Position numbers and translations under genes: made by a program. 36,716 nucleotides of DNA, taken from IMG/VR virus record IMGVR_UViG_3300042870_000833, positions 1 to 36,716 of that record; one strand, written 5' to 3'. Each line of letters begins with the position of its first letter. Position 1 is the stretch's first letter. The notes beneath the pieces were generated by a model. The model searched no databases. It was not told the origin of the DNA and saw only the letters and a program-made list of their open reading frames with translations. Below are positions 13,335 through 33,652 of this stretch, piece by piece. This DNA comes from a virus.

Positions 13335-13363
13335 ATACTATCGGTAGTAAGAGGTAGATACAA
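13335..13363 (-). promoter_or_regulatory. Repeated-type promoter, leaderless gene 13182
   Basis: -35 TTGTAT, spacer CTACCTCTTACTACCGA, -10 TAGTAT, 6 nt to ATG 13328. It starts 5 bp past the helicase stop. Confidence 0.85.
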
Positions 13364-13367
13364 CCTC

Positions 13368-15281
13368 TCAAACACCTTTTTTAAATAAACCCATCAGCAG
13401 TTCCCCTAGAGAATCACCTTCAGCAGCGGGACCTCCGTCCACAGCCTGATTCACCACACCACGCTTGCGCTCAATGAGAGAGTAGATATCTTCATCTATC
13501 GTTCCATCACACAGCAGGTAGGTCGCCGTGACTGACGACTTCTGTCCGAGCCTATGACAGCGACTATAAGTTTGGTCTACATCGGCGGGTGTCCACGGTA
13601 ATTCCACAAACAAAACATCTTGTGCGACTTGCAGGTTGTGCCCCGTCTTTGCCGCTTGGATTGAGAGGACAATGACTGGTGCTTCTTCACATGGCAATGT
13701 CATAAACTTGTGCTTCTGCGCTTCTATCTCGTTGATGTCCATGCCCCCTTGAATGCGTAGGTTGCCGAACGCAAGTGCGAGTTCATCTACTACATCTCTG
13801 TGGTGAGCAGCGATTACGACTTTGCGTCCTTCGGCAACACGGGACTCCACCCACTCCTTGATGACGGGCATCTTTGCTTTGGCTGACAGACGGCGCAATA
13901 CAGACAGGCGAACTAAGTGCTGATTTGACTCTGCCTTGATTTTTGCAACAACCGCTGCGGAGTTAGGGTTCAGCCCAAGTTCAAGTGCTATCTCTTTTGC
14001 TCGTTGCATGAGGTACTCAACGATGTCAGTTTCGGCTTTTTTGTATTCCTTCATGCCGGCTGCAGTCCCGTCAACAAGCACGGGGTCATGAACAACTGGG
14101 GGTAGGTCTGATAAAACCTGTTCTTTTGTGCGCCTTATGTAACAAGTTGAGCGAAGCAAGTCATTTAGTTCATCAAGATTGCTATGTCCATCAAGATGCC
14201 ATTGGCCCCACTTGTCTTTGAAGGCCCCGCAATAGCGTCGGTAAAAACCCCACTCTCCTCCGAACTTATCTAACTTTCCAAGAATGTTTAGTTGGCTTGC
14301 GTACTCGGCAGGTCGGTTGGTAACTGGAGTTCCCGTCAAACACAGAACAATTCCGTTCTTCGGGGCTGAACGTGCAATCTTCACCGCACTCTTTGTTCGC
14401 TGTGCTGTTGGCGTCTTGCAGTAATGACTCTCATCAAAAACGTAAGACTTGTGGTTTGAGAGTTGCTTTTCCCACTTATTAAGGTTAGAATAACTAATAA
14501 CAACCACATCATAATCAGATGGAAACTCTTTACGGTCTTTTACGACTGCAACCCTGATGTGTGGAAGCCACCTGTTATATTCCGCTTTCCAGTTCAGCAC
14601 GAGTGTTGCGGGGCAAACGACGACCGCTGGGTACGAATTACCTACATGTTCCAATGTCGCAATTGCTTGCAATGTTTTCCCCAAGCCCATCTCGTCTGCG
14701 ATGAAAGTGCGCCGTGCGTTACTTGCGTAAGCAACCCCTGCCCTTTGATACGGCAATAACGTTCCCGTCAGTCCCGACACTTCAATCTCGGCGTCAGTCA
14801 GCCGTGATGCTTCTCTAAGTTCCGACAGCGATGTGTCTACTTCTTTGAGCATTTCACGAACTTCGTCAGGAACCTGTTGCTTGAAGGTGTCTCCCCACTT
14901 CACAACGTCGGCAATACTGGTAACCGGGGCTCGCCATGCCATCGTCTTCTTGTCCCAAGTAACTCCTGCCACTTGTTTGACTGACTGAATCATTACTCTG
15001 TCATAACCAAAAGACATGGTAAGCCATTTGCCGTCGTAGTTAATGCCCTTCGCCTCGTTCTTGTGAGTAGGCAACGTGAATAACAGGACTTCGGGGTCAA
15101 TGTCAAAGTCGTTGTCCTGTGCGAACTGCCTTGCTTCGCTGAGACTCACCATCGGGGCTCGCCACACACGTGCGACCTTGTCCCACTTGGCTCCCTTTAT
15201 CTGTTTAACCTTTACAACCTGCTCGGGGTCGTAAGGAAAGTCAAGGACTAGGTGGTCATCATCAAGGCTGAGTTTTTTCAC
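13368..15281 (-). CDS. SNF2/SMARCAL1-like helicase with two HARP-like repeats
   Basis: 637 residues. Two N-terminal HARP-like repeats (GAKWDKVARVWRAP near 30-43, GVTWDKKTMAWRAP near 106-119) precede an SNF2 ATPase: DEMGLGKT at 196-203 (motif I), DESH at 283-286 (motif II), LTGTPVTNR (motif III), and SRCHRLGQKSSVTATYLL (motif VI). HARP-SNF2 proteins anneal ssDNA coated with SSB and remodel stalled forks, so it probably serves phage replication or recombination. Start is GTG 15281; TATGAT lies 6 nt before it, so it too may be leaderless, though the -35 is poor. It follows the LysM gene by 33 bp. Confidence 0.92.
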   Translation of the reverse strand: MKKLSLDDDHLVLDFPYDPEQVVKVKQIKGAKWDKVARVWRAPMVSLSEARQFAQDNDFDIDPEVLLFTLPTHKNEAKGINYDGKWLTMSFGYDRVMIQSVKQVAGVTWDKKTMAWRAPVTSIADVVKWGDTFKQQVPDEVREMLKEVDTSLSELREASRLTDAEIEVSGLTGTLLPYQRAGVAYASNARRTFIADEMGLGKTLQAIATLEHVGNSYPAVVVCPATLVLNWKAEYNRWLPHIRVAVVKDRKEFPSDYDVVVISYSNLNKWEKQLSNHKSYVFDESHYCKTPTAQRTKSAVKIARSAPKNGIVLCLTGTPVTNRPAEYASQLNILGKLDKFGGEWGFYRRYCGAFKDKWGQWHLDGHSNLDELNDLLRSTCYIRRTKEQVLSDLPPVVHDPVLVDGTAAGMKEYKKAETDIVEYLMQRAKEIALELGLNPNSAAVVAKIKAESNQHLVRLSVLRRLSAKAKMPVIKEWVESRVAEGRKVVIAAHHRDVVDELALAFGNLRIQGGMDINEIEAQKHKFMTLPCEEAPVIVLSIQAAKTGHNLQVAQDVLFVELPWTPADVDQTYSRCHRLGQKSSVTATYLLCDGTIDEDIYSLIERKRGVVNQAVDGGPAAEGDSLGELLMGLFKKGV

Positions 15282-15314
15282 ACCCGCATCATAGCCCAGC
15301 GTTTGCGCTTCACC

Positions 15315-15578
15315 TTACTTATCGCTCAATTGAATGATGTCGCCTGTATCAAGCGTGCTAGTACCACGCTCATTGGCTATGTCCCAACTTGCTTGAAGTG
15401 TGTGCCCCTTACAGTGTCTTTCGGTAATGCCTGAGAGTGTGTCGCCTCGCTCTACTGTCACGCTTGCAGTGGGACACGAGTAGTTGTACTTGCTGTCAAT
15501 AACGTTGCTGAATAGCAGGGCTACTGGCACCAATACGATAATGCCAACGGCTATGCGTCTTTTGATGTATTTACTCAT
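15315..15578 (-). CDS. Membrane-anchored LysM protein
   Basis: 87 residues: basic N-terminus, hydrophobic anchor IAVGIIVLVPVALLFSNVI, then a single LysM domain (VTVERGDTLSGITERHCKGHTLQASWDIAN...DTGDIIQLSD). LysM binds N-acetylglucosamine glycans, so the protein would sit in the membrane with its domain on the wall. A role in lysis, superinfection control or host-surface change is possible. It has a repeated-type promoter and is leaderless (ATG 6 nt after the -10). Confidence 0.88.
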   Translation of the reverse strand: MSKYIKRRIAVGIIVLVPVALLFSNVIDSKYNYSCPTASVTVERGDTLSGITERHCKGHTLQASWDIANERGTSTLDTGDIIQLSDK

Positions 15579-15584
15579 ATCTTC

Positions 15585-15613
15585 ACTCTATCTGTAATAA
15601 AAGGTAAAAGCAA
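15585..15613 (-). promoter_or_regulatory. Repeated-type promoter, LysM gene
   Basis: -35 TTGCTT, spacer TTACCTTTTATTACAGA, -10 TAGAGT, 6 nt to ATG 15578. A DnaA box begins 17 bp beyond the -35. Confidence 0.8.
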
Positions 15614-15630
15614 CCCCAAACAAAAGAAAG

Positions 15631-15639
15631 TTATCCACA
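15631..15639 (+). promoter_or_regulatory. DnaA box upstream of the LysM promoter
   Basis: Perfect TTATCCACA. The 15614-15793 stretch holds no gene; it carries this box and the first copy of the CTAATC/GGTGGCGG repeat. Confidence 0.7.
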
Positions 15640-15700
15640 GCCTTTTTGTAGATTCTTATCAGCCGAAGTCCCGGATTACGGCAGCCAGAAAATATCATCC

Positions 15701-15725
15701 CTAATCTACTAACGGTGGCGGAAAG
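15701..15725 (+). repeat. CTAATC-N5-ACGGTGGCGGAAAG repeat, copy 1
   Basis: Both halves present with the standard 5-bp gap, in a gene-free region. Confidence 0.8.
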
Positions 15726-15793
15726 GAATTCGGAGTAACCGTCTAGACGCAAGAGGACAACGACGGGGCTGCAGCGGGAACGTGCGATAAAAC

Positions 15794-15825
15794 AAGAAAA
15801 AACCCCAACCCGAAGGCTGAGGTTT
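15794..15825 (-). terminator. Terminator of the candidate small RNA
   Basis: On the minus strand AAACCTCAGCC pairs with the GGTTGGGGTTT side over 11 bp (two G-U) around a TTCG tetraloop, followed by TTTTTTC. Confidence 0.8.
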
Positions 15826-15900
15826 ATTTCCCATTTCCCGTTAGCGAAACTAATTGTGTGGTCTTACCGAATCCGATTAACCACCGCCAGTTGGCTGGCT
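15794..15900 (-). ncRNA. Candidate small RNA between a repeated-type promoter and a terminator
   Basis: A repeated-type promoter (15907-15935) points here, but no ATG follows its -10 and no ribosome site with a sensible frame is present. The transcript would be about 107 nt, begin near 15900 with an early GCCAACTGGC hairpin, and finish at a good terminator. The only ATG frame runs through the terminator. Function unknown; antisense targets cannot be searched here. Confidence 0.6.
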
Positions 15901-15906
15901 ACTTCC

Positions 15907-15935
15907 ATTATACGGATAGTAGAAGGCGACTGCAA
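15907..15935 (-). promoter_or_regulatory. Repeated-type promoter, small RNA
   Basis: -35 TTGCAG, spacer TCGCCTTCTACTATCCG, -10 TATAAT, then GGAAGT but no ATG. Confidence 0.75.
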
Positions 15936-15938
15936 CCT

Positions 15939-16190
15939 TCAGTCCTTGTTGTTCTCTTCGTACCACAACGTCTTCACCACTTCAGCCACCTTGATGTGGA
16001 TGTAGTCTTGGTGGAATGGGTCAAACATGGTGCCTTGAATGTGAGCCGCTATTGCGGGGCGCTCCTTGTGGAGTTTGTTGAAGAACACCTGACCTAGACG
16101 CTTCTGATTCGCTGGATGCTCCCAAGAGGCGTACACTCTATCCACGAACTCTTCGTAGGTACCGTCTTCGTAGTGGTCGTCAAACGTCAT
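15939..16190 (-). CDS. Small acidic phage protein
   Basis: 83 residues: TYEEFVDRVYASWEHPANQKRLGQVFFNKLHKERPAIAAHI, then GTMFDPFHQD. The RxGQxxxNxL...P..A..IxGTxxDPF pattern recurs in small proteins of many phages, but I know of no assigned function. ATG 16190 overlaps the preceding stop (ATGA). The small-RNA promoter starts right after its stop. Confidence 0.7.
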   Translation of the reverse strand: MTFDDHYEDGTYEEFVDRVYASWEHPANQKRLGQVFFNKLHKERPAIAAHIQGTMFDPFHQDYIHIKVAEVVKTLWYEENNKD

Positions 16191-16573
16191 TCGCTAACCC
16201 CATCTTCGTCGTATAGTTTCTTTACTGCGAAGTAAGTGCCGACTCCATATATCACAAGGAACGTTACCAATGGCCCGAGAGGCGTTTCCTCGTCCCAGTA
16301 AACATATTCATCACTGCCGATGTATGTATGGTATGGAATATACTGCTCGTAGTCGGTGTTGTTGAGCAACACGGAATCGCACTGTTCTCCTTCTGCGTAA
16401 GAGTATCCACACTCATCACCATACACCGGTTCAGCATTAGGGTTGTATGCGTCATTGTAAGCCCAATGCGTAGGTAGAAAAAACTCAGTGGAAAGATGCG
16501 ACAGTTTCACAACTCCCGTCAATGCGACTAAAGAAATGAATCCAATACTTAATGAACGCATACTTATGCGCAT
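16187..16573 (-). CDS. Two-pass membrane protein
   Basis: 128 residues from ATG 16573. N-terminal hydrophobic span LSIGFISLVALTGVVKL, a Tyr/Asp-rich middle with two Cys, and a second span PLGPLVTFLVIYGVGTYFAV before an acidic tail. The middle would lie outside the membrane. ATG 16573 overlaps the stop of the gene before (ATGCGCATAA); ATG 16561 is an alternative. No family recognised. Confidence 0.65.
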   Translation of the reverse strand: MRISMRSLSIGFISLVALTGVVKLSHLSTEFFLPTHWAYNDAYNPNAEPVYGDECGYSYAEGEQCDSVLLNNTDYEQYIPYHTYIGSDEYVYWDEETPLGPLVTFLVIYGVGTYFAVKKLYDEDGVSE

Positions 16574-16677
16574 TCGGCGGCCCCGTCTTCGTTCGCTGTT
16601 TCGCACAGGTAAGCGTTAGCCCATGACTCCATGAAGTCGTCATACGCCTGCATATCTTCCCATGTCCAGTCCTTCAC
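16564..16677 (-). CDS. Acidic microprotein, GTG start
   Basis: 37 residues (VKDWTWEDMQAYDDFMESW...AAECA). GTG 16677 overlaps the preceding TGA (GTGA), which fixes the start. Function unknown. Confidence 0.55.
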   Translation of the reverse strand: MKDWTWEDMQAYDDFMESWANAYLCETANEDGAAECA

Positions 16678-16841
16678 TTGAGTCTCCCCTTGCACCAATC
16701 GCACTTACGTCCACCGTCTATCGCAGGGTCGTCTCCATAGAGGAGTTCAATGTCGTAGCACTGTGTCTGACTATGAGTCATGCAGTAAATGTATCTGCCG
16801 TTACGCCATGCTTTTGGTTTACGTGTTTCTTGTACTTCCAT
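16674..16841 (-). CDS. Zinc-knuckle microprotein, leaderless
   Basis: 55 residues with YIYCMTHSQTQC and KCDWCKGRLK, a CxxH/CxxC layout. ATG is 6 nt after a repeated-type -10. It heads a coupled run of four genes ending at 15939. Confidence 0.7.
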   Translation of the reverse strand: MEVQETRKPKAWRNGRYIYCMTHSQTQCYDIELLYGDDPAIDGGRKCDWCKGRLK

Positions 16842-16847
16842 AGTTAC

Positions 16848-16876
16848 ACTTTACAGGTAGTAAACACTAATACCAA
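16848..16876 (-). promoter_or_regulatory. Repeated-type promoter, gene 16674
   Basis: -35 TTGGTA, spacer TTAGTGTTTACTACCTG, -10 TAAAGT, 6 nt (GTAACT) to ATG 16841. Confidence 0.8.
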
Positions 16877-16908
16877 CATGGTGAGAAAGATTTATCTAGT
16901 CGGCGGAA

Positions 16909-17082
16909 CTAGCAGAAGTGACTGTCTATTATTGACTGAACCAAGTCGGGGCTCTGTGTCTTCGTTATCGGGATTCGCTCAGCATGGTTGTGAAACAAAC
17001 AACTCTCTGACTCCTCAAACCATTTGAGGACATTGGCGATGGTGACATTGACATTGCCTTCGGGAGACACTTCTTTGCTCAT
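16909..17082 (-). CDS. Hypothetical protein
   Basis: 57 residues from ATG 17082, which overlaps the preceding stop (TGATG): MSKEVSPEGNVNVTIANVL then KWFEESESCLFHNHAERI. No family recognised. Confidence 0.65.
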   Translation of the reverse strand: MSKEVSPEGNVNVTIANVLKWFEESESCLFHNHAERIPITKTQSPDLVQSIIDSHFC

Positions 17083-17411
17083 CAGTACAACACGGGCATA
17101 ACAATAATTGGAGTTTGCTCGCCCACCCAAGCCCCGGTGCAGTTGTAACTGATGTACTCTTCTGCTTCTTCTTCGTCCATACCGTCACGAACCATACAGA
17201 CTTCCATCATCTTCTCCCATGAGTACACAGCAAGGAACGGTTCGTTTATGCGTTGTGAGAAACCAATGAGTGCGTCCCCAAAGCCGTCCATCAGAAGGGT
17301 CGTCTCGCCCATCGCTTCAAGATGCTCTTGCACCTGAGCGGGTGTCGGGGGTCTCTTGGTTCTCATCATGACATCAGTCGGGTCAAAGTTTTTTGCGTCT
17401 TTTCCTACCAT
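17082..17411 (-). CDS. Small conserved-type phage protein
   Basis: 109 residues from ATG 17411: TTLLMDGFGDALIGFSQRI, then a charged helix DGMDEEEAEEYISYNCTGAW and VGEQTPIIV. This LDGFxxAxIG...GMxxEEAxEY...N..GAWVGExTP pattern is widespread among phage and actinobacterial small proteins of unknown function. The start is chosen because a diverged promoter lies just upstream; an in-frame ATG 12 codons earlier falls inside it. Confidence 0.8.
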   Translation of the reverse strand: MVGKDAKNFDPTDVMMRTKRPPTPAQVQEHLEAMGETTLLMDGFGDALIGFSQRINEPFLAVYSWEKMMEVCMVRDGMDEEEAEEYISYNCTGAWVGEQTPIIVMPVLY

Positions 17412-17418
17412 GCCTTGC

Positions 17419-17447
17419 AGGTTACAGGTTAGAAGCAGGTACGACAA
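17419..17447 (-). promoter_or_regulatory. Diverged repeated-type promoter, gene 17082
   Basis: -35 TTGTCG, spacer TACCTGCTTCTAACCTG, -10 TAACCT, 7 nt to ATG 17411. It lies in the end of gene 17429, which may explain the divergence. Confidence 0.55.
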
Positions 17448-17548
17448 CCCGTGCGTCGTTTTCTCTGAAGAAAGCGAGGGCGTGGTTGCGGTTCTTCCTT
17501 CGGCTCTTCCGGCTCTTTCGGAGCCCCGTCGTCTGGTTCATTTGTCAT
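17429..17548 (-). CDS. Pro/Glu-rich microprotein
   Basis: 39 residues: MTNEPDDGAPKEPEEPKEEPQPRPRFLQRKRRTGCRTCF. An acidic, Pro-rich half and a basic CRTC end. Its last codons form the promoter of the next gene. TATTAT 6 nt before ATG suggests leaderless reading, but I see no good -35. Confidence 0.6.
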   Translation of the reverse strand: MTNEPDDGAPKEPEEPKEEPQPRPRFLQRKRRTGCRTCF

Positions 17549-17567
17549 GTACCCATAATACGTCAAA

Positions 17568-17608
17568 TGCCCCCACCTAAAAGTTTGAACAAAAACAGGG
17601 TGGGGGCA
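17568..17608 (-). terminator. Hairpin after gene 17653
   Basis: TGCCCCCACCT and AGGGTGGGGGCA pair over about 11 bp with an A-rich loop. There is no long T run, so it may act as a weak terminator. Confidence 0.5.
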
Positions 17609-17652
17609 CTTGCGCCTCAATGAATGGGGGTGTGTGAGGTCTTTTGTAAAAC

Positions 17653-17787
17653 TTAGTCTTCTCGGGGCTTCTCGTCGGGAACTTTTGGAGTAAAGAATGG
17701 AGAATTCATCTTCGCCTTTTCCCAAGCATCTAGCAACTTCTTTTTAGAGATTGCTATTTCTTCTTCGGTTTCGGCTGGTCGTCTCAT
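17653..17787 (-). CDS. Charged helical microprotein
   Basis: 44 residues: MRRPAETEEEIAISKKKLLDAW then EKAKMNSPFFTPKVPDEKPRED. One long helix predicted by eye. It follows the zinc protein gene by 17 bp. Function unknown. Confidence 0.6.
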   Translation of the reverse strand: MRRPAETEEEIAISKKKLLDAWEKAKMNSPFFTPKVPDEKPRED

Positions 17788-18193: not shown

Positions 18194-18222
18194 ACTCTAT
18201 CGGTAGTAAGGGGTAGTTCCAA
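18194..18222 (-). promoter_or_regulatory. Repeated-type promoter, gene 18095
   Basis: -35 TTGGAA, spacer CTACCCCTTACTACCGA, -10 TAGAGT, 6 nt to ATG 18187. A DnaA box pair begins 16 bp beyond. Confidence 0.85.
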
Positions 18223-18238
18223 CCTGCAACCAAAAAAG

Positions 18239-18683: not shown

Positions 18684-18712
18684 AACCTATCGGTAGTAAG
18701 AGGTAATAACAA
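18684..18712 (-). promoter_or_regulatory. Repeated-type promoter, gene 18381
   Basis: -35 TTGTTA, spacer TTACCTCTTACTACCGA, -10 TAGGTT, 6 nt (GGAGTT) to ATG 18677. Confidence 0.9.
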
Positions 18713-18714
18713 CC

Positions 18715-18933: not shown

Positions 18934-18962
18934 AATATATAGATAGTAAAGGGTAGAAACAA
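18934..18962 (-). promoter_or_regulatory. Repeated-type promoter, gene 18715
   Basis: -35 TTGTTT, spacer CTACCCTTTACTATCTA, -10 TATATT, 6 nt to ATG 18927. Confidence 0.85.
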
Positions 18963-18985
18963 CCTCACCCCAAACTTTTTTTCAG

Positions 18986-19430: not shown

Positions 19431-19459
19431 ATCATAGCGGTAATAAAAGGTAAAAACAA
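19431..19459 (-). promoter_or_regulatory. Repeated-type promoter, gene 19282
   Basis: -35 TTGTTT, spacer TTACCTTTTATTACCGC, -10 TATGAT, 6 nt to ATG 19424. Confidence 0.85.
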
Positions 19460-19461
19460 CC

Positions 19462-20020: not shown

Positions 20021-20049
20021 AATCTATCCATAAGAGGTCAAAAAAACAA
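20021..20049 (-). promoter_or_regulatory. Repeated-type promoter (variant spacer), gene 19811
   Basis: -35 TTGTTT, spacer TTTTGACCTCTTATGGA, -10 TAGATT, 6 nt to ATG. It shares the TTTTGACNTCTTAT variant with the promoter at 21058. Confidence 0.7.
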
Positions 20050-20050
20050 C

Positions 20051-20619: not shown

Positions 20620-20648
20620 AGTCTATCGGTAGTAAAGGGTAAAAGCAA
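20620..20648 (-). promoter_or_regulatory. Repeated-type promoter, gene 20446
   Basis: -35 TTGCTT, spacer TTACCCTTTACTACCGA, -10 TAGACT, 6 nt (GGAATT) to ATG. Confidence 0.85.
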
Positions 20649-20711
20649 CATCGGATTATTCCGACGGTTTTAGTGGTTTTTGTTTCCTTGCGTCACAAGA
20701 ATTAAGTGTTT

Positions 20712-20739: not shown

Positions 20740-21051
20740 TTAGTCGGCGATTGCCCAGACTCGTGAAGGACGCCCCGGCTTACCGAGTGTGTTGCAGTCG
20801 TCAATGACTTCCACTCTGCCTTCTTCTTCCAAAGACAGCAGACGCTTGGTTGCGTTAGCCTTGTCCATGTCAAGCAGTTCTGCTACGGCAACTGTGCGAG
20901 CCTCACCCATTAGGGCTACTGCTAGATACACGGCTTCGGTACGAGTCAATTTGTCAAACAAAGCATCACGGAGAGATGGGAAGTTGCTGATAGATGCAAC
21001 AACCTTTCCATCAACCATGAGGTTTGTTCCTGTCATAGTAATGTTGTTCAT
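20740..21051 (-). CDS. Winged-helix regulator (MarR-like), leaderless
   Basis: 103 residues. An N-terminal strand pair is followed by KLTRTEAVYLAVALMGEARTV, then AVAELLDMDKANATKRLLSL with EEEGRVEVID, the helix-turn-helix plus wing order of MarR/ArsR-type winged-helix proteins, ending GKPGRPSRVWAIAD. It probably binds DNA as a dimer and is a candidate regulator of the repeated promoters. ATG 21051 is chosen because it lies 6 nt after the -10; a longer reading to 21186 would cross the promoter. Confidence 0.8.
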   Translation of the reverse strand: MNNITMTGTNLMVDGKVVASISNFPSLRDALFDKLTRTEAVYLAVALMGEARTVAVAELLDMDKANATKRLLSLEEEGRVEVIDDCNTLGKPGRPSRVWAIAD

Positions 21052-21057: not shown

Positions 21058-21086
21058 ATAATACCGATAAGAAGTCAAAACAACAA
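21058..21086 (-). promoter_or_regulatory. Repeated-type promoter (variant spacer), winged-helix gene
   Basis: -35 TTGTTG, spacer TTTTGACTTCTTATCGG, -10 TATTAT, 6 nt to ATG 21051. Confidence 0.75.
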
Positions 21087-21103
21087 CCTCTCGTTGAGAT
21101 TTA

Positions 21104-21452: not shown

Positions 21453-21481
21453 ATCTTACGGGTAGTAACGGGTAATAACAA
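21453..21481 (-). promoter_or_regulatory. Repeated-type promoter, micro-gene 21308
   Basis: -35 TTGTTA, spacer TTACCCGTTACTACCCG, -10 TAAGAT, 6 nt to ATG 21446, then a 63-nt stretch to the membrane peptide. Confidence 0.8.
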
Positions 21482-21483
21482 CC

Positions 21484-22181: not shown

Positions 22182-22210
22182 ATGATATGGGTAGTAAGGG
22201 GTAATCACAA
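22182..22210 (-). promoter_or_regulatory. Repeated-type promoter, gene 21942
   Basis: -35 TTGTGA, spacer TTACCCCTTACTACCCA, -10 TATCAT, 6 nt (GGAGTT) to ATG. Confidence 0.9.
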
Positions 22211-22246
22211 CTTTTATTGCGGATTATTTCAGAAGTTCTCGCATTA

Positions 22247-22896: not shown

Positions 22897-22925
22897 ACTT
22901 TATGGGTAGTAAAGGGTAAAGACAA
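22897..22925 (-). promoter_or_regulatory. Repeated-type promoter, leadered gene 22680
   Basis: -35 TTGTCT, spacer TTACCCTTTACTACCCA, -10 TAAAGT, GAAGTA, no ATG at the leaderless position. A DnaA box begins 18 bp beyond. Confidence 0.9.
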
Positions 22926-22943
22926 CCTCATGCACAAATAAAC

Positions 22944-23287: not shown

Positions 23288-23455
23288 TCATTCTACGGGT
23301 AGTAAGGGGTAATCACAACTTTTTGTTGGGTCGTTTTCACAGTTAGCGCACACTGGCGGAGTCCCGGACACCTTCGCAACAGTTCCACAGTTCCAGCATT
23401 TGGAGTAACCAGTCACTTCACGAATGAGGTCAGACAGAAGTCGGGGCTCGCTCAT
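23288..23455 (-). CDS. Zinc-ribbon protein whose tail is encoded by a promoter
   Basis: 55 residues: MSEPRLLSDLIREVTGYSKC, CWNCGTVAKVSGTPPVCANC, then ENDPTKSCDYPLLPVE. The CxxC pair arrangement is a zinc ribbon. Its last ten codons are the next gene's promoter. ATG 23455 overlaps the preceding stop (TGATG). Confidence 0.65.
   Translation of the reverse strand: MSEPRLLSDLIREVTGYSKCWNCGTVAKVSGTPPVCANCENDPTKSCDYPLLPVE
23290..23318 (-). promoter_or_regulatory. Repeated-type promoter, DUF4314 gene
   Basis: -35 TTGTGA, spacer TTACCCCTTACTACCCG, -10 TAGAAT, 6 nt to ATG. The whole promoter is coding sequence of gene 23288. Confidence 0.9.
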
Positions 23456-23631: not shown

Positions 23632-23660
23632 ATCTTACGGGTAGTAAAGGGCAATAACAA
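23632..23660 (-). promoter_or_regulatory. Repeated-type promoter, gene 23455
   Basis: -35 TTGTTA, spacer TTGCCCTTTACTACCCG, -10 TAAGAT, 6 nt to ATG. Confidence 0.85.
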
Positions 23661-23667
23661 CCCTCAA

Positions 23668-24086: not shown

Positions 24087-24115
24087 ATTATGGGGGTAGT
24101 AGGGGGTAAAAACAA
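24087..24115 (-). promoter_or_regulatory. Repeated-type promoter, gene 23916
   Basis: -35 TTGTTT, spacer TTACCCCCTACTACCCC, -10 CATAAT, 6 nt (GGAGAC) to ATG. A DnaA pair begins 17 bp beyond. Confidence 0.85.
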
Positions 24116-24132
24116 CTTTTTCGTTCAGAAAC

Positions 24133-24801: not shown

Positions 24802-25109
24802 AGTTTCACTTTATCGGTAGTAAGGACTAACGACAACCTTTCTATCGTTTCTTTTGCCTTGTCATATTCTCTCTGCAACTTTTCTACTCTTTGTCGCAAC
24901 CTAAGTTCTTCAGCCGTCAGAATATAGCCCCGGTCACGGCACGCCATGATTTGTTTTTGCGCAGTTGATTTCGGCAAGTCAAAGTGTTTTGCTACCGTAC
25001 TCTGCACGTGACCATACGCTTGAGTCGCCGAACGGGACTCAAGTGCCTCGTTGTATACACGGGCTACTTCACGCAAGTGTTCGTCGGTGAGTCTTTTGCC
25101 TTGACTCAT
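24798..25109 (-). CDS. HTH protein with coiled-coil tail encoded by a promoter
   Basis: 103 residues. KRLTDEHLREVARVYNEAL precedes STVAKHFDLPKSTAQKQIMAC with RDRGYI, a helix-turn-helix of the type found in actinobacterial phage regulators; a coil (ELRLRQRVEKLQREYDKA) follows. The last residues LSLVLTTDKVKL are encoded by the DUF3846 promoter. The start ATG 25109 overlaps the preceding stop (AATGA). Likely DNA-binding; target unknown. Confidence 0.75.
   Translation of the reverse strand: MSQGKRLTDEHLREVARVYNEALESRSATQAYGHVQSTVAKHFDLPKSTAQKQIMACRDRGYILTAEELRLRQRVEKLQREYDKAKETIERLSLVLTTDKVKL
24808..24836 (-). promoter_or_regulatory. Repeated-type promoter, DUF3846 gene
   Basis: -35 TTGTCG, spacer TTAGTCCTTACTACCGA, -10 TAAAGT, 6 nt to ATG 24801. 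It is entirely coding sequence of gene 24798. Confidence 0.85.
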
Positions 25110-25904: not shown

Positions 25905-25933
25905 ATCTTATCGGTAGTAAGGGACAGACACAA
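25905..25933 (-). promoter_or_regulatory. Repeated-type promoter, gene 25473
   Basis: -35 TTGTGT, spacer CTGTCCCTTACTACCGA, -10 TAAGAT, 6 nt to ATG. Confidence 0.85.
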
Positions 25934-25934
25934 C

Positions 25935-26141: not shown

Positions 26142-26170
26142 ATTCTACGGATAGTAAAGGGTAGAAACAA
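26142..26170 (-). promoter_or_regulatory. Repeated-type promoter, gene 25935
   Basis: -35 TTGTTT, spacer CTACCCTTTACTATCCG, -10 TAGAAT, 6 nt to ATG 26135. Confidence 0.9.
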
Positions 26171-26171
26171 C

Positions 26172-26875: not shown

Positions 26876-26904
26876 ATCCTATCGGTAGTAAGCAGTAATG
26901 CCAA
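26876..26904 (-). promoter_or_regulatory. Repeated-type promoter, gene 26462
   Basis: -35 TTGGCA, spacer TTACTGCTTACTACCGA, -10 TAGGAT, 6 nt to ATG. Confidence 0.85.
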
Positions 26905-26906
26905 CT

Positions 26907-27209: not shown

Positions 27210-27238
27210 ATTCTATGGATAGTAGGGGGTAAAGACAA
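27210..27238 (-). promoter_or_regulatory. Repeated-type promoter, KTSC gene
   Basis: -35 TTGTCT, spacer TTACCCCCTACTATCCA, -10 TAGAAT, 6 nt to ATG. Confidence 0.9.
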
Positions 27239-27242
27239 CCTC

Positions 27243-27422: not shown

Positions 27423-27451
27423 ACTCTACGGGTAGTAAGGGGTAACAACAA
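27423..27451 (-). promoter_or_regulatory. Repeated-type promoter, gene 27243
   Basis: -35 TTGTTG, spacer TTACCCCTTACTACCCG, -10 TAGAGT, 6 nt to ATG 27416. Confidence 0.9.
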
Positions 27452-27459
27452 CCTGTGGT

Positions 27460-28092: not shown

Positions 28093-28121
28093 ATATTACG
28101 GTTAGTAACCCCCAATACCAA
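28093..28121 (-). promoter_or_regulatory. Repeated-type promoter heading the leftward block
   Basis: -35 TTGGTA, spacer TTGGGGGTTACTAACCG, -10 TAATAT, 6 nt to ATG 28086. Confidence 0.8.
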
Positions 28122-28145
28122 CCTCTAAACAAATCTATCTAAAGG

Positions 28146-28174
28146 TTGGAAGTGTCCCTTACTACCCCTAGAGT
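28146..28174 (+). promoter_or_regulatory. Repeated-type promoter heading the rightward block
   Basis: -35 TTGGAA, spacer GTGTCCCTTACTACCCC, -10 TAGAGT, GGAGTT, then a 24-nt leader with AAAGGAG. Divergent from the previous promoter, 24 bp between -35 boxes. Confidence 0.9.
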
Positions 28175-28690: not shown

Positions 28691-28727
28691 TGTGCGCCGG
28701 GACTCGCAGGATAAGTTTTGCGTCAGG

Positions 28728-28756
28728 TTGTGTTTGTGCCTTACTACCCATAGTAT
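28728..28756 (+). promoter_or_regulatory. Repeated-type promoter, gene 28763
   Basis: -35 TTGTGT, spacer TTGTGCCTTACTACCCA, -10 TAGTAT, 6 nt (GTAATC) to ATG 28763. Confidence 0.9.
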
Positions 28757-29393: not shown

Positions 29394-29415
29394 AGACTCA
29401 GGGCGAAGCCCCGGG

Positions 29416-29458
29416 AGCCCTCGTGACATCTGGCAACAGGTTGTTACGGGGGCTTTCT
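29416..29458 (+). terminator. Terminator of gene 28911
   Basis: AGCCCTCGT (29416-29424) and ACGGGGGCT (29446-29454) pair over 9 bp (one G-U), followed by TTCT. Confidence 0.7.
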
Positions 29459-29497
29459 ACCAGTACCCTACAAACCACAATCAACTAAAAGGAAAAA

Positions 29498-29755
29498 ATG
29501 AACATTGTAGACACACCCTCAACTAACGACACAGCGGTAGCCCGCACCACAGATGGCAAGTTAGACCTAAACGCATATCTCAACTGTCACGGAACGATTG
29601 AGCAAGAGGGTCTCACTGTCAATGTGATGGTTCTCGGGGCTCGCCGACGATACGGTCACCTTGACTTGGAAGTAACTCCAGTGCTCGGAACTGGGCGTCG
29701 CTGGGTTGAGCGCAAAAACATCGTCCTCAATAACGACCCTGCAGGTTGTGTTTAA
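29498..29755 (+). CDS. Hypothetical beta-rich protein
   Basis: 85 residues: ARTTDGKLDLNAYLNCHGTI, TVNVMVLGARRRYGHLDLEV, RRWVERKNIVLNNDPAGCV. Strand-rich, OB- or SH3-like by eye; no family recognised. AAAGGAAAA precedes ATG. Its last codons GGT TGT GTT form the start of the next promoter. Confidence 0.7.
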   Translation: MNIVDTPSTNDTAVARTTDGKLDLNAYLNCHGTIEQEGLTVNVMVLGARRRYGHLDLEVTPVLGTGRRWVERKNIVLNNDPAGCV

Positions 29756-29774
29756 CCCTTACTACCTATAGAGT
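29746..29774 (+). promoter_or_regulatory. Repeated-type promoter, gene 29781
   Basis: -35 TTGTGT (inside the preceding gene), spacer TTAACCCTTACTACCTA, -10 TAGAGT, 6 nt to ATG 29781. Confidence 0.9.
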
Positions 29775-29780
29775 GAAGCC

Positions 29781-29960
29781 ATGAAGAAATACATTATTCA
29801 GGTAACCGAAAGCATCAATCACCAATACGAGGTTGAAGCGGAGGACGAAGATGGTGCACTAGAAGCCTATGACCGTCTCACTGATACACAACTCAAGACA
29901 CGAGACCTAGACGGTGACAGTGGCTGGGACCGACCATGGGACGTCACGGAAGTCATCTAA
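29781..29960 (+). CDS. DpnD/PcfM-like small protein, leaderless
   Basis: 59 residues: MKKYIIQVTESINHQYEVEA, EDEDGALEAYDRL, then an acidic end. The KxYxxxVxEsxxxxxEVEAxxxxxAxxxY opening resembles the DpnD/PcfM fold of small mobile-element proteins; a tentative match. It overlaps the next gene by 1 nt (TAATG). Confidence 0.65.
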   Translation: MKKYIIQVTESINHQYEVEAEDEDGALEAYDRLTDTQLKTRDLDGDSGWDRPWDVTEVI

Positions 29961-30235
29961 TGCATCAGATTCGCATCAGAACTGAAGTGGTCTACCCAAA
30001 TGGTGGACCAGCATACGACAAGTATGACTACTTCCTTATAAAAGACGAAGACCTTCCAGATACCTGGAAAGAATTCAAACCAGAAGATTTTTACGACTTT
30101 TTAAACGAAGGCGGACACTGGAATAAAGGCTGGCAAGAGATTACTCGGGACCACGAGACTTGGATTGAAGACAATCAAGCAGAGGGTTCCCAAACAGAAA
30201 CAGCAATAGTAGTGGATTTCATCAACCCCTTTTAG
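29960..30235 (+). CDS. Hypothetical acidic protein
   Basis: 91 residues: MHQIRIRTEVVYPNGGPAYDKYDYF, DTWKEFKPEDFYDFLNEGGH, then ETAIVVDFINPF. An alpha/beta fold is likely; no family recognised. The start overlaps the preceding stop. Confidence 0.7.
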   Translation: MHQIRIRTEVVYPNGGPAYDKYDYFLIKDEDLPDTWKEFKPEDFYDFLNEGGHWNKGWQEITRDHETWIEDNQAEGSQTETAIVVDFINPF

Positions 30236-30237
30236 TA

Positions 30238-30257
30238 GCACTGACGGTGGCGGAAGA
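30238..30257 (+). repeat. GGTGGCGG repeat, copy 7 (CACTG variant)
   Basis: GCACTGACGGTGGCGGAAGA just after the stop; the CTAATC half is replaced by GCACTG. Confidence 0.75.
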
Positions 30258-30319
30258 ACCACGCTGCGCGTTTATTCAGAAATCAAACTTTTGGGTAAAT
30301 GACTTACCCCTAGCCTTTT

Positions 30320-30556
30320 TTAATTTTCTTCTTTTTTCTTACTTTTTACAGCGGCCTCTGGGGCCAGAACAACTTCGGCGACTTCAACTACCTCAGCAAC
30401 TTCAACTACTTTAGCGGCTGGCATTACGAAGGAGTCTGAACCAATACCCTTCGGCTCAACATCTGCTGCCCTTACTGGCGCTGCAACGGTAGCCCCGGAT
30501 GCTTTCTCAAATGCTTCTACTTTTGCCAATGCTTCTTCTGGAGTAAGTTTTCTCAT
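30320..30556 (-). CDS. Ala/Val-rich protein with VEVAEV repeats, lone minus gene
   Basis: 78 residues: MRKLTPEEALAKVEAFEKAS, PVRAADVEPKGIGSDSFV, KVVEVAEVVEVAEVVLAPEA, KSKKKEEN. The VEVAEVV unit is a tandem repeat also in DNA. It resembles flexible scaffold-like or linker proteins. AAGGA precedes ATG 30556. It sits in a plus-strand block, so it is expressed separately. Confidence 0.65.
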   Translation of the reverse strand: MRKLTPEEALAKVEAFEKASGATVAAPVRAADVEPKGIGSDSFVMPAAKVVEVAEVVEVAEVVLAPEAAVKSKKKEEN

Positions 30557-30650
30557 GATATTTTCCTTCTGAATAAATCTCGTGAAACAATAATACAACA
30601 CCGGGGCACCCAGTCACGACGCAAATTTCTTATAAATTTTTCTAAGAATG

Positions 30651-30679
30651 TTGGAAGTACCCCTTACTATCCATAAGAT
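30651..30679 (+). promoter_or_regulatory. Repeated-type promoter, gene 30686
   Basis: -35 TTGGAA, spacer GTACCCCTTACTATCCA, -10 TAAGAT, 6 nt (GGAGGC) to ATG. Confidence 0.9.
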
Positions 30680-30685
30680 GGAGGC

Positions 30686-30856
30686 ATGAAGGAATACAAA
30701 GACCTAGAAACAATTACTGAATCTGACTTAGAACTTGAGTGCGACGAATGTGGCGTACCTCATGATGATGGTCAGGAGTTCACATTCATCAAGCCCTACG
30801 ACTTTGAGCCAGGGCATTGGGTGTGCATAGGATGCAAAGAGGAGTTATTTAGATGA
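30686..30856 (+). CDS. Zinc-ribbon protein, leaderless
   Basis: 56 residues: MKEYKDLETITESDLELECDEC, GVPHDDGQEFTFIKPYDF, HWVCIGCKEELF: CxxC...CxxC. It overlaps the next gene by 4 nt (ATGA). Confidence 0.7.
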   Translation: MKEYKDLETITESDLELECDECGVPHDDGQEFTFIKPYDFEPGHWVCIGCKEELFR

Positions 30857-31338
30857 TTACCATAGAACAGATAAACGACGTCCATCGTTCCCTATGGGAC
30901 GACGCCATAGAAAGACATGGCGACAAGTTCAAGGTGCCCTTTGAGGAGATACACAAGATATCCACTCATACTCGTGCGCTCTATGCGCTGATGGGTTGGA
31001 ACGGGTCGGGCAATCCTGCTCGCTACCTATCTACTTACTCCGTACCGACAGAGGTAATCGCTGATGTGGTCGCTGAATACTGTGACGAAGTCGTTGACCC
31101 CGAGGAACTACTTACCCCGAGGCCCCGCCGAGCCGACAAGTACGATGCCCTACTGACTTGGTCAAAAGACCACCTATTTGAACAGTTCACTACCGAGCAG
31201 TTGGTTGAAGTATCAGGCTTCTCTTATCCCACCACCTTGAAGTTCTTGCAGGAGTCTCCGACTTTCCGCAAAGTCAAGAAGGGTCTATGGGAAGTGCGTG
31301 ACGCTGAGGCTGATAAGAAAGCCGAAAAGAATCTGTAA
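30853..31338 (+). CDS. Hypothetical protein with winged-helix-like C-terminus
   Basis: 161 residues. The N-terminal half is helical (ITIEQINDVHRSLWDDAIER, EIHKISTHTRALYALMGWN). The C-terminal half (LFEQFTTEQLVEVSGFSYPT, TLKFLQESPTFRKVKKGLW) reads as a winged helix with wing KGLWEVRD. Probably DNA-binding. It lies just before the MoxR promoter and is a candidate regulator of it. Confidence 0.7.
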   Translation: MITIEQINDVHRSLWDDAIERHGDKFKVPFEEIHKISTHTRALYALMGWNGSGNPARYLSTYSVPTEVIADVVAEYCDEVVDPEELLTPRPRRADKYDALLTWSKDHLFEQFTTEQLVEVSGFSYPTTLKFLQESPTFRKVKKGLWEVRDAEADKKAEKNL

Positions 31339-31345
31339 AGAGATG

Positions 31346-31374
31346 TTGTGATTAGGGCTTACTACCCGTAACAT
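31346..31374 (+). promoter_or_regulatory. Repeated-type promoter, MoxR-VWA operon
   Basis: -35 TTGTGA, spacer TTAGGGCTTACTACCCG, -10 TAACAT, GGAGTC, then a 26-nt leader with AAAGGAG. Confidence 0.9.
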
Positions 31375-31406
31375 GGAGTCATAACCAATTGCAAAGGAGC
31401 AATAAA

Positions 31407-32126
31407 ATGGAAAAAGAAATAACACTACCCGAGTGCTGGCAAACACTCAAAGACTGCATGGACTCAGGGATTGACCGAGTCATCCTGTTTGGACCTGCTG
31501 GAACTGGCAAGACCTTTGCTGGTCTCACATTTGGAAATGTCGGCGCTGGCGCACACCGTTTGGTCTGCACAGAAGACATGACTTCAATGGATGTGACTGG
31601 AGCATTCATGCCTGACGGTAACGGCAGATTCTCATGGGTCGCTGGTGCTGGTCTCAAGGCTTGGGAAGGCAACGGACTCAATGGTGGTCGTCTCATCGTG
31701 GATGAGATTGACAAGGCGTCGGGAGATGTGTTCGCACTTCTGCTTGCGATGCTTGACTCACCTGAATCAGCAACTTGGGAGCATCCCGAGACTGGTCGTA
31801 TCCATCGTCCGAAAGACGGGTTCTCTGCAGTCATGACCACGAACATTGAGAATATGGAAGAGTTGCCAATGGCGCTCGCTGACCGATTCCCTGTTCGTAT
31901 CCGAATCAACGCCCCTCACCCGAGTGCGCTTGAGAAGTTGTCGTACGAGTTGCGTGAGTACGCAGTCCGTATGGCTGATGCTGGCAAGCGCCGAATCTCA
32001 TTGCGTACTTTCTACGCATTTGACAAACTGCGTAAGCAACTAGGTGACGAGAAGTCTGCAAAGATTATCTTTGGTGACCGAGCAACTTCTGTACTGGACG
32101 CCATTGCGATTGACAAGGTTCACTAA
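31407..32126 (+). CDS. MoxR/CobS-like AAA+ ATPase
   Basis: 239 residues. Walker A GPAGTGKT at 29-36, Walker B LIVDEID with D99-E100, sensor-like TTNIENMEELPMALADRFP and an arginine-finger region follow. MoxR/CobS ATPases work as hexamers with a von Willebrand A partner to remodel proteins or insert metals; the partner lies next door. The start ATG 31407 has AAAGGAG 8 nt before it. Stop and next start overlap as TAATG, so both are made together. Confidence 0.9.
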   Translation: MEKEITLPECWQTLKDCMDSGIDRVILFGPAGTGKTFAGLTFGNVGAGAHRLVCTEDMTSMDVTGAFMPDGNGRFSWVAGAGLKAWEGNGLNGGRLIVDEIDKASGDVFALLLAMLDSPESATWEHPETGRIHRPKDGFSAVMTTNIENMEELPMALADRFPVRIRINAPHPSALEKLSYELREYAVRMADAGKRRISLRTFYAFDKLRKQLGDEKSAKIIFGDRATSVLDAIAIDKVH

Positions 32127-33580
32127 TGAGACACATTGCCGAACCCGAATGGCTTGGGCGTAACGACGCCGAGCATGGCGCTTGGCAAGTTGAAGATTGC
32201 GAACCTCGCCGTGGCATCCCTGCTACTTCTATCGTGGAACGCAAGATGCTTGCACCTGCACACGACACTGAACAAGCAAGAGTAATCCGAGCGCACGAAA
32301 TGATGCATGCAAAAGTTTCTCCTGCTAATGATTGGGAGAAGTGGCAGAACAGAAAGATTGCCACTCTTCCAGCAATGATGGCGTGTGAAGAATTGCGTGT
32401 GAACTTACTGTGCGATAGGGCTGGCTTTGATGTGAAGAACCAACTGTCTGACGGTGGAGAGACCGCAGACGGAGAACGCCTTGCTTGCACCGAAGACTGG
32501 AAGGGTGCAGTACACATGGCTGTCGCCACTGCTGGTACCGCAAGTAACAAGTTGTTCCTGAACGGCATACGCCGACATAACCGCTTATGGGGTACTGCGC
32601 TTGCTGATATCTCTAAGCGAGCAGTGAAAGAAATGAACAAGGCTGGTCACCGCTTATCAAGCACCGAAGTGCATGCCTCTACTGGTCTCGCTCCATTTGG
32701 ATTCATCTACACAGAGAAACTTGCTGAATGGGTTGACCGTCTCGCTGGTATGGAACCACCGTCGGAAGATGAATCAGAATCAAGTGACGACTCTTCAATG
32801 AGTACCGAAGGTGATGACAAAGAAAGCAAGCGTGAACACTCAAACATCGGAAGTGTAAAAGTAAAAGAAACTGAGTTTCGTGAAAAACTAAAAACAATTA
32901 CTCCCGACAGAATGGACAACAGTGTTCCTTATTGGGGAGAACTAATGATTGAGAAGTTGCCACTTCCTATTATTGCTAAAGGTAATTTGGGAAAGAAGAA
33001 AACAGCATCCAATGTTGGTCGCTCACCACGCCGTATCCACCGATACATGACTGACCCACAGAAGCGAATCTTTGACAACAAGAGACGAGGAATGGGTGGA
33101 GTCGTGTGCGTTGATGCATCGGGTTCAATGTCTCTATCTCAAGATGATGTTCGCAGAATTCTTGAAGCAAGTCCGGGGGCTACCGTCATTGCGTACTCCG
33201 ATATTCGTGATGGTCATCCGAACGCTTGGATTCTTGCTGACAAGGGTCGTATGGTTGACGAAATGCCCGAGATGGGTCAAGGCAACGGCGTTGACTTCCC
33301 TGCGCTTGAATGGGCAGTGAAGCGTCGCCAGCACTCAACTGCTCCAGTCATTTGGATGACTGACGGTGGAGTCTGTGGTCCTCACCAAGGATTCTCTGAA
33401 CTACTTGCGAACCAATGCACTGCGTTCTGTTTGGAGAAGAAGATTCACCTGACCGAAAACGCCGAAGCCACCATCGCTCTTCTCGGAGCGCTCTCAAAAG
33501 GAATGACGGTACCGAAGGCACCTTTCCCATACATGTTGAAGCATGCGTGGGAAGCACGAGGTGGGAAACTTCCTTACTGA
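32126..33580 (+). CDS. Metallopeptidase-like/VWA partner protein (DUF2201-like plan)
   Basis: 484 residues. The N-terminal region has RAHEMMHAK (57-61 HEMMH, a zincin HExxH) followed by CEELRVN, the plan of the putative metallopeptidase half of DUF2201 proteins. An acidic Ser-rich linker spans 213-236. The C-terminal VWA domain has MIDAS residues DASGS at 330-334 and MTDGG later. It is paired with the MoxR ATPase as in CobS/CobT and MoxR-VWA chaperone systems. The substrate is unknown; protein remodelling or proteolysis during infection is possible. Confidence 0.85.
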   Translation: MRHIAEPEWLGRNDAEHGAWQVEDCEPRRGIPATSIVERKMLAPAHDTEQARVIRAHEMMHAKVSPANDWEKWQNRKIATLPAMMACEELRVNLLCDRAGFDVKNQLSDGGETADGERLACTEDWKGAVHMAVATAGTASNKLFLNGIRRHNRLWGTALADISKRAVKEMNKAGHRLSSTEVHASTGLAPFGFIYTEKLAEWVDRLAGMEPPSEDESESSDDSSMSTEGDDKESKREHSNIGSVKVKETEFREKLKTITPDRMDNSVPYWGELMIEKLPLPIIAKGNLGKKKTASNVGRSPRRIHRYMTDPQKRIFDNKRRGMGGVVCVDASGSMSLSQDDVRRILEASPGATVIAYSDIRDGHPNAWILADKGRMVDEMPEMGQGNGVDFPALEWAVKRRQHSTAPVIWMTDGGVCGPHQGFSELLANQCTAFCLEKKIHLTENAEATIALLGALSKGMTVPKAPFPYMLKHAWEARGGKLPY

Positions 33581-33588
33581 CCGCTACG

Positions 33589-33623
33589 CCCCACAACCAC
33601 TTGCTCCTTTGTTGGTTGTGGGG
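33589..33623 (+). terminator. Hairpin after the VWA gene
   Basis: CCCCACAACCA and TGGTTGTGGGG pair over 11 bp; there is no T run and the next promoter begins at once (33624). Confidence 0.55.
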
Positions 33624-33652
33624 TTGTGGCTAGCCCTTACTACCCGTAAAAT
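33624..33652 (+). promoter_or_regulatory. Repeated-type promoter, Api92-like gene
   Basis: -35 TTGTGG, spacer CTAGCCCTTACTACCCG, -10 TAAAAT, GAAGTT, then a 16-nt leader with AAGGAG. Confidence 0.9.

Follow-up and report, generated by a model that had tools for sequence, protein, structure and literature searches.

A clade-specific word inside the spacer of 31 predicted phage promoters suggests a regulon under one phage-encoded reader

The Streptomyces phage phiC31 carries many conserved, phage-specific early promoters with linked repressor sites (CIR operators), and spacer-binding activators of the MerR type act on promoters whose 19–20 nt spacer contains a palindrome. The present analysis concerns a set of 31 predicted promoters that share a recognition word inside a 17-nt spacer, found in IMG/VR virus record IMGVR_UViG_3300042870_000833, a linear fragment of 36,716 bases (hereafter the window). 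Among described repeated elements, the stoperators of Cluster A phages number 20–30 short asymmetric sites per genome, are oriented with transcription and have a subcluster consensus that is matched by the repressor. As outlined in PMC6550527, most of them lie away from promoters and act by stopping elongation, and the phages concerned have a repressor and lysogeny.

The lytic Microbacterium phages of Cluster EC carry an 18-bp asymmetric motif in 12 like-oriented copies, located in small intergenic gaps 21–30 bp before start codons; its function is left open where the motif is described (PMC7302621). In Cluster K, SAS and ESAS repeats mark the starts of genes within the non-structural half of the genome; they are conserved across subclusters and often precede genes of different families; SAS coincides with the ribosome site, and its authors suggested a role in translation initiation (PMC3203893). 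According to PMC4351075, Cluster O genomes contain more than 30 copies of 17-bp palindromes, as well as predicted leaderless SigA-like promoters. Phage T4 has many similar promoters per genome, with a MotA box that replaces the -35 element in middle promoters and a consensus that differs among relatives, as summarised in PMC1524935. No description of a spacer element of the present kind was found in open-licence PMC papers, the literature that was searched.

A 42-column matrix, seeded on exact octamer sites and iterated until stable, returned 31 sites in the window, 24 on the minus and 7 on the plus strand, with scores from 25.5 to 60.5. In 100 simulated first-order Markov sequences, no position scored above 9 bits (maximum 8.0). 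A preliminary description of this DNA had placed 31 near-identical promoters, 25 on the minus and 6 on the plus strand, between 13335 and 33652. The number stands, as do the six plus-strand sites of that interval, which holds 30 of the 31 sites; its minus-strand count falls to 24, and the remaining site lies beyond it at 11091 (+). Of the exact octamer TTACTACC the window has 20 copies, where base composition predicts about 1.2; 19 copies are in promoter context and one, at 10341 (+), falls within an open frame. The consensus, read by eye from the matrix, is RGGTTGTnnTTACCCCTTACTACCCRTARRaTGRAGTTATGA.

The sites conform to a sigma-70/SigA promoter, defined as TTG, a spacer of 17 ± 1 nt and TAnnnT. 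TTG is present in 31/31 sites, the distance from TTG to the -10 box is constant in 31/31, as first reported, and the -10 letters T, A and T occur in 30, 31 and 31 sites. The full -35 hexamer TTGACA is absent: the fourth base is T in 22/31 sites and never A, and -35 positions 4–6 carry low information in promoters of the window type. Mean information per position is 1.93 bits for GTTG, 1.86 for the -10 T/A/T and 1.52 for TTACTACC. The word is thus similar in strength to the -35 and -10 elements, and the original claim that it is far more conserved must be withdrawn; a spacer element of such strength is unusual. The sites are almost certainly promoters. The preliminary description took them for promoters, joined them in one regulon and saw in the spacer an element dispensable for SigA recognition; all three points are supported, though only by inference.

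A start codon lies exactly 6 nt past the -10 T (at +22) in 25/31 sites, matching the 6–7 nt that characterise leaderless actinobacterial genes; these 25 promoters are predicted to be leaderless, the first transcribed base being the start codon's A. In relatives, a start codon stands at +22 in 26/34 (G001), 23/34 (G005) and 21/23 (G003) sites. Four of the other six sites in the window precede, by the author's reading, a purine-rich ribosome site and a more distal start codon, and the gene start is ambiguous at 15922 and 11091; the claim that each site lies upstream of a gene holds for most sites. By a hand-made gene list, 27/30 sites overlap genes by at most 6 nt. The sites are asymmetric and point in the direction of transcription. 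Three of them (21073, 20036 and 11091) combine the promoter skeleton with a second, CTCTTATnGG-like word. A scan of 13200–33100 with a consensus sigma-70 model found fewer promoters than shuffled sequence (11 vs 18.6) and recovered only 4/29 skeleton sites there.

In relatives with longer records, the promoters are confined to one block. All 34 sites of G005 (132,392 bases) fall in its first 22.2 kb and last 1.1 kb, about 23 kb in all; the terminal 25 bases of this record are found again close to its beginning. In the 118-kb G001, the 34 sites lie without exception at 82.8–106.5 kb, and the translations of this record that look structural by eye lie outside the block.

Recent duplication of one promoter cassette, with conservation by descent and not by function, would account for the near-identity of many sites. 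The flanks are nearly signal-free (mean 0.09 and 0.10 bits vs 1.13 inside the site), however, and invariant columns are interspersed with variable ones. Orthologous promoters add to this. Between the window and G001 (22 promoters), changes affect 0/88 positions of GTTG, 0/66 of the -10 T/A/T and 11/176 of the core, against 168/616 of the upstream flank; the corresponding counts are 0/52 (GTTG), 23/104 (core) and 218/364 (flank) between the window and G005 (13 pairs), and 19/88 (core) and 150/308 (flank) between G003 and G005 (11 pairs). These counts show selection on the orthologous promoters. The simple form of cassette duplication is refuted by the flank and orthologue results, and the idea as a whole is scarcely credible.

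A search with the SNF2 helicase brought 60 loci. Among these related uncultured phages, the skeleton AGGTTG, 17 nt, [T/C]AnnnT recurs with spacer words that differ by clade. Class A (window, G001, G003, G005) has TACTACC, class B has CTTACAnGGCATAAT (L115–L117) or TACAaGCCATAAT (L118, L120), with a variant in L114 derived from four sites, class C has TAATAAGCC (L124), class D TAATAAcGG (L125), class E ATAGCC (L126) and class F TATAACCG (L134, L135); CTTACAnGG is also among the clade words. Classes C, D and E consist of one contig each, and several records in A, B and F are closely related. Further words, TAGTAA (L194) and TTAGTACC (L235, L237), emerged from a search with the protein HA-sigma4, discussed below. 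Expectation-maximization seeded with GTTG-N19 to N21-TA found nothing in 14/23 loci, including class B, until other seeds were used, and L164 gave a weak signal. A palindrome, GGTTGT...ACWACC, was considered and dropped. Symmetry exceeds that of shuffled columns only in G005 (p 0.03), one of four genomes, with the best centre at -4 in three of the four; the words of classes C, D and E break the palindrome, and symmetry is left only as a hint for class F.

Classification of matrix-selected sites placed 318/327 in the correct class vs 206 for the control, after 9/336 sites had been dropped for lacking the skeleton. As this procedure is partly circular, reliance is placed on a word-blind selection that required only a -10 box, a following open reading frame start and TTG at 17 nt. 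With this selection, the words emerged unaided. The 10 nt before the -10 assigned the correct class to 212/245 sites in 14 records; of three control column sets, the 10 nt preceding the -35 did so for 79 sites, the 5′ spacer columns for 137 and the inner -10 plus discriminator columns for 146; same-class genomes share orthologous promoters, in word and controls alike. A 17-letter promoter pattern matched 32 stretches on 15 viral contigs, 12 of which are relatives by protein and three of which gave one match each. With up to two mismatches, it was found in 18/23 records, and the reversed control in none.

Between related phages, the word changes at almost every site of a genome at once, over an unchanged -35 and -10, which makes a trans-acting reader likelier. 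The small gene at 13182–13328 next to the helicase is a plain example: the window promoter carries TTACTACCGATAGTATG, that of L116 CTTACACGGCATACTG. A clade-specific reader acting in trans is, on these comparisons, quite probable. Host SigA might instead act alone, with the word as an intrinsic feature for RNA polymerase (DNA shape or an extended -10) tuned for strength. TTG, 17 nt and TAnnnT do fit SigA, and T4 early promoters likewise have extra conserved positions, as PMC1524935 describes them. An intrinsic optimum should not switch, whereas the word varies by class over a constant -35 and -10, and sister phages with TTGACA have no word; this explanation is improbable.

The reader could also be a host regulator to which each phage clade has adapted, as hosts may differ between clades. 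A scan of the GTDB genome collection with the exact class-A pattern alone gave 11 single matches, none in a named actinobacterium, and lends no support to a host regulon; a host reader is very unlikely. The preliminary description had left the choice between a phage and a host regulator open and pointed to scans of both; many phage relatives were found, the comparison favours a trans-acting reader, and its host half has gained nothing.

A concerted-evolution test was weak: spacer differences between orthologous sites of two genomes exceeded those between non-orthologous sites within either genome in 3/6 pairs (8.08 of 20 vs 7.45 and 6.21 in the case of the window with G005). A tree of 40/60 helicase loci, together with the window and two further records, suggested paraphyly of class A. 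This idea was dropped, as the window is nearer to G003/G005 than to class B in 11/13 comparable genes and, in L114, the helicase alone resembles that of the window. The L114 helicase (581–2470) is 92% identical to the window's and the other genes are 58–80% identical, so it was probably exchanged by recombination; the flanking promoters nonetheless carry a class-B-like word.

The sign of control is suggested by sister phages without a word. Records L149, L150, L151 and L157 have leaderless CTTGACA promoters and helicases 60% identical to that of the window, those of L151 and L157 being identical to each other. These four records were compared with 12 word-bearing ones: information at -35 positions 4–6 is 1.32–1.49 vs 0.25–0.74, and that of the 10 nt preceding the -10 is 0.29–0.43 vs 0.88–1.22. 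As word promoters lack the -35 ACA that the word-less sisters retain, the weakened -35 would probably be compensated by a bound factor, and activation appears the better guess over repression. The distant L130, G020 and G023 have neither promoter type, with 1, 3 and 3 TTG-bearing candidates respectively.

Alternatively, the word could be an operator through which a phage repressor silences the block, for delayed shut-off or superinfection exclusion. Like stoperators as described in PMC6550527, the sites are asymmetric, transcription-oriented, roughly 20–30 per genome and different between relatives. Against an operator stand the promoter skeleton of all 31 matrix sites, the weak -35 of word promoters and the lack of an integrase: neither a tyrosine (PF00589) nor a serine (PF00239) integrase was found in eight records, most of them fragments. 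Classic prophage immunity was dropped on the same count. Because many records of relatives are fragments, such absences are weak. An operator keeps a minor but real share of the probability. The window encodes a transglycosylase, a primase/helicase-like gene, the SNF2-type helicase and a WhiB-like protein, which freshwater work takes as an actinophage mark (PMC9878933; PMC10202952). With this WhiB gene and no integrase found, the phage is apparently a lytic actinophage. Megablast of 13000–33800 against INPHARED phages gave no match.

The first candidate for the reader is HA-sigma4, which in the window joins an HA domain (E 9e-12) to sigma-70 region 4 (27.2 bits, cut-off 24.1), both above Pfam cut-offs. 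Orthologues 65–89% identical occur in G001, G005, G026, G027 and G028, and the protein is present in classes A, B (two records), D, E and F, in two further word types and in G036. Its sigma-4 helix is constant, like AGGTTG. A phage sigma factor with region 2 was sought and dropped: region 2 was found in none of seven records, and the window protein does not combine regions 2 and 4 as a complete sigma-70 does. No cultured relative was found, as HA-sigma4 had no match in 50,697 phage records, and a Foldseek search with its model (pLDDT 83, pTM 0.57) gave none at E ≤ 0.001.

HA-sigma4 occurs in 68 viral loci, 12 of them with the GTTG-N20 family. Repeated word pairs were sought in 25 of the 68, and matrices were built for ten. 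L205, L225, L229 and L255, which lack the GTTG family, have TTGT-plus-word promoters of their own with 18-nt spacing, L246 and L250 have mostly TTGACA promoters, L238 and L241 have another repeat, and the remaining two of the ten, L194 and L235, have the word types already given. No AGGTTG site lies in the 60 nt upstream of the HA-sigma4 gene. This upstream region (35782–35842 (-) in the window, and in G001 and G005) contains CCATTCGCGC, then a TATATT-/TATAGT-like box near the start codon. HA-sigma4 is ranked first among the candidates, though it is less likely than not to be the reader.

The second candidate, a MarR/TrmB-like winged helix with a predicted recognition helix at residues 64–76, is doubtful as the reader. 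A structure search with its model gave MarR/ArsR-type folds as the closest (best E 0.0017). In classes A, B and D, though not in the class-E record, the gene has a skeleton promoter of its own. Such a promoter was found in 9/10 genomes examined, the exception being G028. The word score of this promoter is below the median in 9/9 genomes scored, ranking 4/31, 2/34, 1/23 and 2/34 from the bottom in four class-A genomes; this promoter and its low scores would also suit a repressor acting on operators. The recognition helix differs among classes A, B, D and E. As sole reader the protein was rejected, since neither F nor C yielded it and covariation is no more than phylogeny gives. In class B, a shorter winged-helix relative also stands behind a skeleton promoter (L118 9729–9995, L120 1558–1824, L121 699–956).

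The preliminary description had named the WhiB, winged-helix and RHH proteins as possible readers. The case for the winged helix is weakened by its presence in only four of the six word classes A–F, and that for WhiB and RHH by their occurrence, shared with an HTH protein at 5650–6252, in relatives both with and without words. The RHH-like protein is present in 15/18 relatives tested and was not found in L130, L150 and L157. In the protein at 30853–31338, the C-terminus is nearly constant across word classes. The 56-aa open reading frame at 23916–24086 (-) is 82–91% identical in G001, G003 and G005, which is high for the block.

The explanation that best accounts for these results, and that we hold as the probable one, takes the sites as early or non-structural promoters of an actinophage. 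Judging from their anatomy, the host polymerase and its principal sigma factor would read the -35 TTG and the -10 TAnnnT, 17 nt apart, and the transcript would usually begin with the A of the start codon. A phage-encoded protein, suggested by the comparison of relatives, would bind the word, which occupies the 3′ portion of the spacer, and set the block as one regulon, and the word may drift and switch between related phages along with its reader. From its domain order, HA-sigma4 could contact the -35 through region 4 and the spacer through its HA domain. Taken further, a partial sigma factor (HA plus a lone region 4) might work with host SigA, region 4 taking AGGTTG and HA reading the clade-specific word as a fast-switching password that confines early transcription to its own kind; this extension is rather unlikely, but if true it would specify a promoter from inside its spacer, a new way of doing so. 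The analysis is wholly computational, and what it says of host, timing, reader and sign of control is inference.

Several observations weigh against this explanation. Even GTTG is altered in 3/44 positions between G003 and G005. The best-known analogue with clade-specific words, the Cluster A stoperator, serves repression in the account of PMC6550527. The argument for activation draws on one comparison, whose groups also differ in G+C (0.44–0.53 vs 0.57–0.58), and activation is therefore not proven. As regards HA-sigma4, 56/68 loci gave no GTTG-N20 family (one of them, L192, is a piece of the class-A G005), and the protein also occurs in G023, which has no such promoters, and, with an insertion, in G034/G035, which have TTGACA. 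Its sigma-4 helix is identical in the TTGACA user L246, region 4 falls below the Pfam cut-off in class F, and four word-bearing fragments, G003, G024 (class C), G043 and G044, did not yield the protein. The winged helix was undetected in class F, where the whole promoter block is covered, and in the 25-kb class C fragment.

The motif has a fixed promoter address, a trade with the -35 that can be measured, and a natural series of specificities, through which the reader could be sought by word or gene swaps. A whole regulon that changes its recognition word on a constant skeleton would offer a test case for a regulator and dozens of sites changing together, and HA-sigma4 a lead toward a minimal sigma-like adaptor. 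The role of the repeated motifs in actinophage Clusters K, O and EC is likewise left open in the reports that describe them (PMC3203893, PMC4351075, PMC7302621).

Table 1. Predicted promoters and candidate regulators in the window. Promoter coordinates run from the -35 GTTG to the -10 T.
Feature	Position	Strand	Spacer word	Basis
Weakest site, beyond the interval	11077..11106	+	CTCTTATA, divergent	matrix
Promoter	13335..13364	-	TTACTACC	octamer + matrix
Promoter	15585..15614	-	TTATTACA	matrix
Promoter-like, no start codon at +22	15907..15936	-	CTACTATC	matrix
Promoter	16848..16877	-	TTACTACC	octamer + matrix
Promoter	18194..18223	-	TTACTACC	octamer + matrix
Promoter	18684..18713	-	TTACTACC	octamer + matrix
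Promoter	18934..18963	-	TTACTATC	matrix
Promoter	19431..19460	-	TTATTACC	matrix
Promoter	20021..20050	-	CTCTTATG, divergent	matrix
Promoter	20620..20649	-	TTACTACC	octamer + matrix
Promoter of winged-helix gene	21058..21087	-	TTCTTATC, divergent	matrix
Promoter	21453..21482	-	TTACTACC	octamer + matrix
Promoter	22182..22211	-	TTACTACC	octamer + matrix
Promoter, leadered gene	22897..22926	-	TTACTACC	octamer + matrix
Promoter	23290..23319	-	TTACTACC	octamer + matrix
Promoter	23632..23661	-	TTACTACC	octamer + matrix
Promoter, -10 CATAAT	24087..24116	-	CTACTACC	matrix
Promoter	24808..24837	-	TTACTACC	octamer + matrix
Promoter	25905..25934	-	TTACTACC	octamer + matrix
Promoter	26142..26171	-	TTACTATC	matrix
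Promoter	26876..26905	-	TTACTACC	octamer + matrix
Promoter	27210..27239	-	CTACTATC	matrix
Promoter	27423..27452	-	TTACTACC	octamer + matrix
Promoter, divergent from 28145..28174	28093..28122	-	TTACTAAC	matrix
Promoter, leadered gene	28145..28174	+	TTACTACC	octamer + matrix
Promoter	28727..28756	+	TTACTACC	octamer + matrix
Promoter	29745..29774	+	TTACTACC	octamer + matrix
Promoter	30650..30679	+	TTACTATC	matrix
Promoter, leadered gene	31345..31374	+	TTACTACC	octamer + matrix
Promoter, leadered gene	33623..33652	+	TTACTACC	octamer + matrix
RHH-like + zinc-ribbon-like protein	5340..5660	-		weak Pfam matches
WhiB-like protein	7979..8341	-		PF02467; also in word-less relatives
Winged helix, candidate reader 2, 103 aa, MarR/TrmB-like	20740..21051	-		below Pfam cut-offs
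Protein, C-terminus read as HTH-like	30853..31338	+		no Pfam match
HA-sigma4, candidate reader 1, 123 aa	35411..35782	-		HA (PF03457) + sigma-70 region 4 (PF04545)

Other repeats are present as well. The octamer AGCCCCGA has 23 copies in the window (12 plus, 11 minus; e.g. 19144, 22991, 26241) vs 1.7 expected from a third-order model and is enriched also in G001, G005, G026 and G027; a role for it as a terminator was dropped, as the words are not hairpins. Two strong hairpins resembling intrinsic terminators lie at 19765–19796 and 15800–15825 (-), and terminator-like sites show no general excess in the window (25 vs 19.8 in shuffles). The distant L086/L087 (G023, without this promoter type) contain 13 minus-strand copies of CTTCCNCCACCG at 16730–31654, 11 of them closely trailed by AGCCCCG. 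A GGGGGGTAAGAGTTTCC-like repeat has 16 sites in L130, and a CTAATAGATAACT-like repeat 23 sites in L238 and 26 in L241, both HA-sigma4 loci.

Compared with a MerR-type arrangement, the spacer here is 17 nt long, and its symmetry is no better than that of shuffled columns in three of four genomes. Cluster A stoperators resemble the present sites in being many, asymmetric, oriented and clade-specific. They differ in that all 31 matrix sites here lie in a promoter skeleton and only one of 20 octamers lies elsewhere, and in that Cluster A phages are temperate and carry an integrase, which was found in 0/8 records here, most of them fragments. The Cluster EC motif is likewise asymmetric, similarly placed and carried by lytic phages, but it lies upstream of a ribosome site (its genes are not leaderless), is not assigned to a promoter and occurs in phages that encode a sigma factor. 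In contrast to Cluster K SAS, the present element lies upstream of the predicted transcript. The Cluster O palindromes are not tied to promoters, about one-third lying within genes in the data of PMC4351075. In T4 middle promoters, as given in PMC1524935, the Mot box occupies -30 to -27, 11–13 nt from the -10, as an activator box that replaces the -35, whereas the word here stops 2 nt short of the -10, with TTG still in place at 17 nt. The new part, we infer, is a phage promoter set with one presumed phage regulator, whose recognition word lies in the spacer and is specific to the clade.

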